DNA of 22,524 bases. It comes from a virus. How positions within the stretch are numbered: position 1 is the first letter of the stretch; each line of letters opens with the position of its first letter. This document shows, piece by piece, positions 17,447 through 19,109 of this stretch. The DNA lies in the IMG/VR virus record IMGVR_UViG_3300045978_000063, positions 1-22,524 of that record; one strand, given 5' to 3'. Below the pieces are notes generated by a model. The model searched no databases, was not told where the DNA came from, and saw nothing but the letters and a program-made list of their open reading frames with translations. Made by a program: the position numbers and the translations under genes.

Positions 17447-17447
17447 G

Positions 17448-17530
17448 CGGAGGGGCCAGGAATCGAACCTGGGAAGCTGTCGCCTGCCGCCGGTTAGCAA
17501 CCGGGCACCTTGCCACTCGGTCAACCCTCC
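17448..17530 (-). tRNA. tRNA-Ser(GCT)
   Basis: On the - strand it folds as a class II tRNA of 83 nt. The acceptor is GGAGGGT with CCCCTCC, mismatched at the seventh pair (T:C). The D arm ACC/GGT has a loop with GG. The anticodon arm has loop TTGCTAA (anticodon GCT, U33 present) with a C:C mismatch at the first pair. The variable arm AGGC/GCTT is long as expected for serine. The T arm CCAGG-TTCGATT-CCTGG is normal. The discriminator is G, as in bacterial serine tRNAs, and CCA is not encoded. It would read AGC and AGU codons. Confidence 0.85.
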
Positions 17531-17534
17531 AGAA

Positions 17535-17650
17535 TGGCGGGGGGAAGGATTTGAGCCTCCGAGCAGGACCGAGGGATAGACCGAACCTCATTGGTCCCGC
17601 TGGCATCGGCCGCGCCGCCGGTTTGGCCGCTTCCGGCAAACGCCCCGCCA
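17535..17650 (-). ncRNA. 116-nt tRNA-like RNA with giant variable arm
   Basis: Placed with 4-nt gaps between two tRNAs. By hand it folds in tRNA order on the - strand. A perfect 8-bp end helix is TGGCGGGG (17650-17643) with CCCCGCCA (17542-17535). A D-like arm GCCGG/CCGGC (17637-17617) has the loop AAGCGGCCAAA. A possible anticodon arm is CGCGG-CCGATGC-CAGCG (17614-17598) with one G:A mismatch. A long variable arm (17597-17566) pairs GGACC with GGTCC and GAGG with CCTC. The T-like arm GGAGG-CTCAAAT-CCTTC (17560-17544) keeps the T55, C56, A58 pattern. Normal tRNAs are 73-95 nt, so this is oversized. If it is a tRNA the loop gives anticodon GAT, but position 33 would be C. It may be an unusual tRNA, a degenerate one or another structured RNA. 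Confidence 0.5.
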
Positions 17651-17654
17651 TGCG

Positions 17655-17737
17655 AGGAAGGTGGAGGAGTCGAACCCCTGGCTGTCACGCCACCCTGGTT
17701 TTCAGGACCAGTTGCCCACCGCTGAGCAGCACCTTCC
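17655..17737 (-). tRNA. Probable tRNA-Ser(TGA), atypical
   Basis: It folds as an 83-nt class II tRNA on the - strand. The acceptor GGAAGGT/ACCTTCC is perfect. The D arm TGC/GCA has a GG-containing loop. The anticodon arm CTGGT-CCTGAAA-ACCAG gives anticodon TGA, which reads UCA. The variable arm GGC/GCC is long. The T arm loop is TTCGACT. Odd points: position 33 is C where U is nearly universal, the T stem has an A:C mismatch at its base, and the discriminator base is T, unlike the G of serine tRNAs. CCA is not encoded. It is a tRNA gene by structure; its charging identity is less sure. Confidence 0.72.
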
Positions 17738-17754
17738 AAGAATCAATTGGAAGG
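17732..17754. repeat. 8-bp inverted repeat overlapping tRNA 5' end
   Basis: CCTTCCAA (17732-17739) and TTGGAAGG (17747-17754) are perfect inverted copies around GAATCAA. The left copy overlaps the 5' acceptor strand of the tRNA-Ser(TGA) on the - strand, so in the precursor the leader could pair with the acceptor sequence. The TTGGAAGG string recurs at the scaffold promoter (19214-19221). Confidence 0.5.
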
Positions 17755-17825
17755 GCTACTCGATCGGTGGTCGCATCCAGTGGTCACTTGCTCATCATCG
17801 TAAAGCCTGAAAGGGGGAGTCGTCA
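17738..17825. promoter_or_regulatory. Spacer upstream of tRNA cluster and of 427-aa gene
   Basis: This 88-bp spacer must hold any dedicated promoter for the - strand tRNA genes and the ribosome site of the + strand gene that follows. The ribosome site AAAGGGGGAG lies 6 nt before ATG 17826. On the - strand a weak TTTACG box (about 17800) is the best -35 candidate, with no convincing -10, so no promoter is asserted. Confidence 0.3.
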
Positions 17826-19109
17826 ATGGCCGCTCCGGTGACCACCACGTCGGTCGCCAACGTCTACCGCCTGCTCGGGTTGAAAGTGCCGTCCGAGGCG
17901 ACCCTGACCCGGATCGCCGGGGAAATAACCGCCGGCCGCACCTGGACCGACCTCCGCGACGACCTGATCGCATACCAGGCGAATGCGGCGGGTCAAACCC
18001 CTGAACAGTGGCTCCAGAACGTCATCAGAGGCTATTTCACGGCGCGGGGAGCGACGATAGCCACCCAGTACCCGCCCGAAACCGAACAGCAACGCCTCGC
18101 CCGGATCACCCAAGAAGTCCTCTCCGGCCAGCGCACCCTTTCGGAAGTAAGGGCGACGATCAACACCTTCGCGGTCCAACCTGGCGGCACCACCGGCACT
18201 CCCCCGCTCCCCCCCGTGGTCCCACCGACCCAACCACCGCCTCCGCCTCCCCCACCGAACACTCCTCCCCCGCCACCTCCGCCGGTCGACACCATCGACT
18301 ATGCGGCGCGGGTCGCTGCGTTGTATCCGTGGCTGCCGGGGCCGCTCGCCTCCAAATTCGCCTCCCTCTGGGCGTCGTCGGGGGACGCAAACCTTGCGTT
18401 GGCCGAGCTGCGTCAGGACGACCTCTACGAGACGTACTACCCGGGGATCCGCCGGCCGGACGGCACCCTCCGCATGAGCGAAGCCGAATACGCCTCCAGC
18501 AAAGAGGCTTACAGCAACCTTCTCGCCGGCTACGGGCTCAACCCGTCCCAGTTCTCGTCGTGGTACACCCGTTGGATCGAAGGGGAGAAATCCCCCCAGG
18601 AGGTCGCCGCCGAACTGGGCGCCACCTATGAGGGACTGGTGGCGAACATCCCCGAGGTCCGCCAGTATTACGCCGAGCGTTGGGGCATCGACATGAGCGA
18701 CCAGGCGATCTTCGCCTCGATCCTCGACTCCGACGTCGCCGCCGGCATCCTCTCACGTCGGATTGCGGTAGCGCAGATCGGCGGGGAGGGACTAGCGCGA
18801 GGTTTCGACGTGGCCGACCCGTTCGCCGAGAGGTTGGCCGCCGCCGGTATCGACCAGGGCGCCGCCCGCGGGTTCTTCTCAGAAGCCGAAGGCCGCCTCC
18901 CGTCCCTCGACGAAATGGCCCGACGGTTCCGGGACCCCGACTCCACCTTCGACCTCGAGGAATTCGCCGACGCCGCCGTATTCGGAGGGGCCGCCCAAAC
19001 CTCCCGTATTCGCAGGTTGCTCGCATCGGAACAGTCACTCTTCACTGACCAGACCGGCGGGCTCGCCATGAACAACGAACTGGGCGTGACCGGACTCCGC
19101 GCGATCTGA
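17826..19109 (+). CDS. Internal or tail-associated protein with polyproline linker
   Basis: A 427-aa product with the strong site AAAGGGGGAG before ATG 17826. Residues 1-120 are helical (for example TLTRIAGEITAGRTWTDLRD). Residues about 124-154 are almost pure Pro with Thr and Val, a rigid linker. Residues 155-427 are a second helical domain. Within it ETYYPGIRRPDGTLRMSEAE with a following YxLLAGYGL unit resembles an element found in very large phage tail or internal proteins, usually combined with a W-[IV]-x-G repeat as in SWYTRWIEGEKSPQEV. No enzyme motif is visible. It is separated from the ejection cassette by the tRNAs but resembles it in composition. It is followed by the regulatory region for the capsid genes. 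Its role is inferred. Confidence 0.75.
   Translation: MAAPVTTTSVANVYRLLGLKVPSEATLTRIAGEITAGRTWTDLRDDLIAYQANAAGQTPEQWLQNVIRGYFTARGATIATQYPPETEQQRLARITQEVLSGQRTLSEVRATINTFAVQPGGTTGTPPLPPVVPPTQPPPPPPPPNTPPPPPPPVDTIDYAARVAALYPWLPGPLASKFASLWASSGDANLALAELRQDDLYETYYPGIRRPDGTLRMSEAEYASSKEAYSNLLAGYGLNPSQFSSWYTRWIEGEKSPQEVAAELGATYEGLVANIPEVRQYYAERWGIDMSDQAIFASILDSDVAAGILSRRIAVAQIGGEGLARGFDVADPFAERLAAAGIDQGAARGFFSEAEGRLPSLDEMARRFRDPDSTFDLEEFADAAVFGGAAQTSRIRRLLASEQSLFTDQTGGLAMNNELGVTGLRAI

Follow-up and report, generated by a model that had tools for sequence, protein, structure and literature searches.

A rearranged tRNA-Tyr-like element, probably a degenerating tRNA, in the tRNA cassette of an actinophage-type virus

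Background

Class II tRNA-Tyr(GUA) of bacteria and phages is characterised by the acceptor stem GGCGGGG/CCCCGCC, the discriminator base A73, the D-loop AAGCGGCCAAA and the T-arm GGAGGCTCAAATCCTTC, together with a variable arm of about 13 nt. The retron-Eco7 and Septu systems cut tRNA-Tyr in the variable loop and phages respond with their own tRNA-Tyr; the tRNA-Tyr of phage T5 is resistant because of its distinctive variable loop (PMC13096335, PMC11555353).

Several RNAs that depart from the standard tRNA form have been described. RNA1, RNA2 and RNA3 of phage T5 are annotated as stable transcripts and lie within a tRNA cluster. RNA1, 144 nt long and annotated near tRNA-Ser(UGA), scores 16 bits on tRNA models and RNA2 13.2 bits. 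The irregular tRNA polycistrons from soil (Mukai et al. 2017) are reviewed in PMC7609411 as class II tRNA-like, with an extra acceptor/D-stem segment and an extra -1 pair. Allo-tRNAs possess an 8/4 or 9/3 arrangement of acceptor and T-stem, giving a 12-bp branch.

Here we analysed a 116-nt tRNA-Tyr-like element on the minus strand of a virus record, at positions 17535-17650 of its 22,524 bases (from here: the window). In 16 of the 18 reading frames chosen throughout the window, the stop codon is TGA. The element has the acceptor, A73, D-loop and T-arm in common with tRNA-Tyr(GUA) and differs from it by a giant arm of 32 nt, four extra nucleotides before the D-arm, one after the T-stem, C54 and the lack of GUA. 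Like the T5 RNAs, it is located within a phage tRNA cluster, is of similar size and obtains weak tRNA-model scores; in contrast to these annotated transcripts it is a predicted gene. The extra segment before the D-stem and the extra -1 pair are shared with the soil polycistrons. Compared to allo-tRNAs, the branch is 7/5 with an additional unpaired C (8/5 if the outer T-A pair is counted), and the element resembles tRNA-Tyr rather than tRNA-Ser, whereas an 8/4 branch occurs in the neighbouring tRNA-Ser(UGA). We propose that the element descends from tRNA-Tyr by rearrangement, no longer decodes and lies within a transcribed cassette, and that it is probably a degenerating tRNA.

Methods

The element was compared with reference tRNA genes (121, then 173) drawn from phages and the genomes of actinobacteria and covering 20 isotypes. 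Those for tRNA-Tyr had been fetched with a typed consensus sharing the GGCGGGG acceptor; therefore, the similarity test was rerun without the acceptor to remove this bias. A tRNA-Tyr covariance model was built from 19 tRNA-Tyr. Further searches used ARAGORN and the Rfam models RF00005 (gathering threshold 29 bits) and RF01852 (tRNA-Sec, gathering threshold 47 bits). A score of >47 bits, a UCA anticodon and a 13-bp branch were taken as the marks of tRNA-Sec. Descriptor scans for oversized genes in other phages searched for a Tyr-type D-loop, then a T-loop at an unusual distance.

Results

Three genes on the minus strand make up a cassette, in the order tRNA-Ser(UGA), the tRNA-Tyr-like element and tRNA-Ser(GCU). 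A sequence-only reading had noted that the element fills the space between the tRNAs, and the fit is near-exact, the spacers being 4 and 5 nt long. The only tRNA called by ARAGORN in the window at default settings is tRNA-Ser(GCU) at 17447-17530 (RF00005, 41.9 bits). The tRNA-Ser(UGA) at 17656-17737 was not called at default settings; it appeared at the 95% threshold with the anticodon tga, and RF01852 gave 41.1 bits, below its gathering threshold. This gene is similar to the T5-type phage tRNA-Ser(UGA). Its sequence indicates an 8/4 acceptor/T branch, a 6-bp D-stem with a 4-nt loop and C33, which would make its architecture allo-tRNA-like. Upstream of all three genes, a promoter-like site TTGACG-18-TACGAT is located at 17797-17826 on the same strand (9/12 match; the expectation from shuffles is 0.0, sd 0.2).

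The cassette (17447-17825) is inserted between two structural-region genes and is antisense to both. It is absent in the nearest relatives, L007 and L008 (~70% capsid identity), where the same two structural genes lack it. Sequences related to the capsid protein come from Mycobacterium and Propionibacterium phages and from genomes of actinobacteria, as well as from other sources; hence, an actinobacterial host is likely for this actinophage-type virus.

In the comparison with tRNA genes of 20 isotypes, tRNA-Tyr ranked first with a best score of 54.8, whereas 1,190 windows elsewhere in this phage reached at most 35.7 and 1,000 shuffles at most 39.0. The mean score for Tyr was 41.9, followed by Ser with 26.0. 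When the acceptor was removed, the score was 47.1, with no more than 33.0 in any of 1,520 windows, and Tyr was again the best isotype; in this acceptor-free comparison the D-segment was nearest to Tyr and the T-segment about equally near to Tyr and Pro. The acceptor, the D-arm with its Tyr-type D-loop, the T-arm and A73 are the tRNA-Tyr-like parts of the element. A tRNA origin is strongly supported by these comparisons, which point to a class II tRNA-Tyr of the actinobacterial or phage type as the source.

Other identities were rejected. The Ser scores are well below those for Tyr. The tRNA-Sec model gave the best Rfam score for the element, but this amounted to only 18.9 bits against the cut-off of 47, with the anticodon part unaligned. 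Chance folding of a G+C-rich spacer could be invoked since the whole-sequence fold has a z of only -2.15. Yet the Tyr similarity exceeds every control window and every shuffle, with the acceptor included or left out, and the element fits almost exactly between two tRNA genes, which makes an accident of composition barely credible.

Read on the minus strand, the element is T-GGCGGGG-CGTT-T-GCCGG-AAGCGGCCAAA-CCGGC-GG-CGCGG-CCGATGC-CAGCG-GGACC-AAT-GAGG-TTCGGTCTATC-CCTC-GGTCC-TGCTC-GGAGG-CTCAAAT-CCTTC-C-CCCCGCC-A. Drawn as a tRNA, the 5′ strand of the acceptor, GGCGGGG (17643-17649), forms seven of seven pairs with CCCCGCC (17536-17542) and matches actinobacterial tRNA-Tyr acceptors. T 17650 can pair with A 17535, so that the 8-bp acceptor of the sequence-only reading is obtained when this outer pair is counted. 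The 3′ part (17535-17543) consists of an unpaired C at 17543, the acceptor 3′ strand and the discriminator A at 17535 (A73); CCA is not encoded at the 3′ end. The T-arm GGAGG-CTCAAAT-CCTTC (17544-17560) has 5 bp and a tRNA-type loop in which C54 replaces T, according to the Tyr comparison and the fold. Acceptor and T-stem pair fully, with one G-U, and are separated by the extra unpaired C.

The same two sources of evidence define the D-arm (17617-17637), with the 5-bp stem GCCGG/CCGGC and an 11-nt loop that is Tyr-like (GAGCGGCCAAA). The stem bases differ from the CCC/GGG of Tyr yet remain paired; such pair-preserving changes are no more than suggestive of selection on structure. At the junction of acceptor and D-arm, an extra CGTT (17639-17642), absent from tRNA-Tyr, can pair with GGCG (17613-17616) in a constrained fold, lengthening the D-arm. 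The giant arm GGACC-AAT-GAGG...CCTC-GGTCC comprises 32 nt (17566-17597) with pair probabilities of 0.94-1.00, and the predicted fold extends it to 17562-17601 as a 13-bp arm.

The D-like, T-like and giant arms of the earlier description thus stand, as does the acceptor, but the complete fold in tRNA order does not: the full drawn cloverleaf has -41.2 kcal/mol versus an MFE of -58.9 kcal/mol. The anticodon-like arm CGCGG-CCGATGC-CAGCG (17598-17614), in which GAT at 17605-17607 had been read as the anticodon, has a G.A mismatch, C33 and a predicted pair probability of 0.00 and is not supported as a formed arm. Forcing the acceptor, D and T arms gives a best fold of -54.0 kcal/mol that contains the 13-bp arm; relative to it, the anticodon arm costs about 12 kcal/mol. 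A GUA anticodon is absent, and the predicted fold has no 7-nt anticodon loop on a 5-bp stem. Both the D-arm (probability 0.03) and the standard register of the T-arm (about 0.2) are minor when the ensemble is left unconstrained; it is therefore homology, and not folding energy, that supports the tRNA shape.

The element was not called by ARAGORN until the threshold was lowered to 70%, at which 171 genes were reported in the window and nothing credible at the position of the element. No match of RF00005 to the element was listed up to E 10. The tRNA-Tyr covariance model yielded 19.0 bits; its best match outside the three genes was 12.3 bits. This match lies in a different register of 85 nt (17535-17619), which would exclude the upstream 31 nt. 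An 85-nt tRNA-like gene is favoured by this model; however, its acceptor is mismatched, neither the Tyr-type D-loop nor the perfect acceptor of 7 bp is retained in it, the score comes mainly from the T-arm and 3′ end shared by both registers, and the longer register is penalised for its insertions. We regard the shorter gene as very improbable.

At least 12 further phage contigs carry oversized class II tRNA or tRNA-like genes of 98-117 nt, which default ARAGORN overlooks. These genes score 34-64 bits on the tRNA-Tyr model compared to 19 for the element of the window, which is the poorest tRNA of the oversized set. Those in L259, L263, L264, L239 and L250 share with it a class II body, Tyr/Ser-type features and an expanded variable arm; unlike that of the element, their anticodon arm is normal, and they reach 43-64 bits. 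The gene in L259 (13515-13621, minus strand) is a tRNA-Tyr(GUA) of 107 nt with a giant variable arm. L263 (3989-4097, minus strand) and L264 (3005-3107, minus strand) carry CUA (amber) anticodons and are candidate recoding suppressor tRNAs, and the oversized tRNA of L239 has a GUC anticodon. Three genes, those of L259, L264 and L239, pass the Rfam tRNA cut-off. Odd anticodon arms occur in L220, L214/L221, L222/L243, L251, L260 and L267; in L251 (4329-4434, plus strand), L260 (9045-9156, plus strand) and L267 (4603-4719, minus strand) the tRNA-like gene has an insertion in the anticodon arm or loop.

The gene of L250 (7932-8029, plus strand; 98 nt, 43.1 bits), situated inside a large phage tRNA array, has the loop CUGAUAA and hence GAU. 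Together with the position of GAT in the element, and with the mismatch between anticodon and amino acid in allo-tRNAs (PMC7609411), it lends some substance to a functional tRNA of oversized form, with a Tyr/Ser-like body and a GAU anticodon (mis-sense or allo-tRNA type). We find this improbable for the element of the window, given the unformed, mismatched arm with C33, its energetic cost and the tRNA-Tyr model score of only 19 bits.

The sole other copy of the element was found in a 35-kb contig that is identical (100%) over 12,618 nt. Searches of IMG/VR with exact T-arm and D-arm patterns returned this contig plus unrelated DNA and no diverged relative. Phage and plasmid collections and five whole genomes, searched with blastn, gave nothing beyond short G+C-rich matches, and among 50 records related by capsid protein the identical contig alone passes the tRNA cut-off. 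A pattern for oversized Tyr-like tRNAs matched seven times in 296 actinobacterial genomes, by eye chance matches or normal tRNAs.

Discussion

The ancestor would have been a class II tRNA-Tyr of the actinobacterial or phage type, of which acceptor, D-arm, T-arm and A73 survive. Its anticodon and variable region has been replaced or expanded by ~25 nt to give a single long hairpin, and small insertions have been added elsewhere. The element would therefore be unable to decode as tRNA-Tyr. It would be co-transcribed with its neighbours and cut out with them, and we infer a degenerating tRNA without a role in translation rather than a maintained tRNA-like RNA.

Decay is consistent with the missing GUA, the unformed anticodon arm, the weak scores of finders and models and the extra C between T-stem and acceptor. 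The absence of the cassette from L007 and L008, the promoter-like site and the lack of a diverged IMG/VR relative by exact patterns were counted on the same side. On the other side, the elbow retains most of its conserved bases, with position 54 as the clear exception, acceptor and T-stem are fully paired, and the D-stem departs from tRNA-Tyr by changes that preserve its pairs. Simple decay predicts damage throughout, so the intact half suggests that acceptor and elbow are under constraint or that a single rearrangement took place recently. The weak scores also have their equal in the stable tRNA-like RNAs of T5.

Such constraint would be expected of a maintained tRNA-like RNA in which the Tyr-type acceptor and elbow engage tRNA-binding proteins while the altered domain avoids the ribosome, acting as a decoy or as a nuclease-resistant mimic. 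The CCA-adding enzyme, TyrRS or a defence nuclease that cleaves tRNA-Tyr would be its conceivable targets. The acceptor, D and T parts are retained as modules, the other phage contigs repeatedly show oversized class II tRNAs whose variable arms have been remodelled, and T5 encodes its stable RNAs beside tRNA-Ser genes. Nevertheless, a changed anticodon in the phage tRNA-Tyr abolished rescue from retron-Eco7 (PMC11555353); a non-decoding version would not help there, and therefore the element would need a different action. No such defence is known for the host. Precedents for a mimic or decoy exist. Overall, we consider a maintained RNA possible but unlikely, and more doubtful still is the proposal, one part of a joint reading, that the element is an extreme, non-decoding decoy member.

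Among the origins offered by the sequence-only reading, a new tRNA class, a mimic or a decaying gene, the first is not borne out: the searches gave no diverged homologue, an anticodon arm is not expected to form from the predictions, and the score of 19 bits contrasts with 34-64 bits in the oversized cousins. On present evidence the element is a variant of a known tRNA type, and decay fits best.

Conclusions

If decay is all that is involved, the element would be a small curiosity of phage tRNA cassettes. A standard tRNA finder misses oversized class II phage tRNAs, including tRNA-Tyr and amber-suppressor types.
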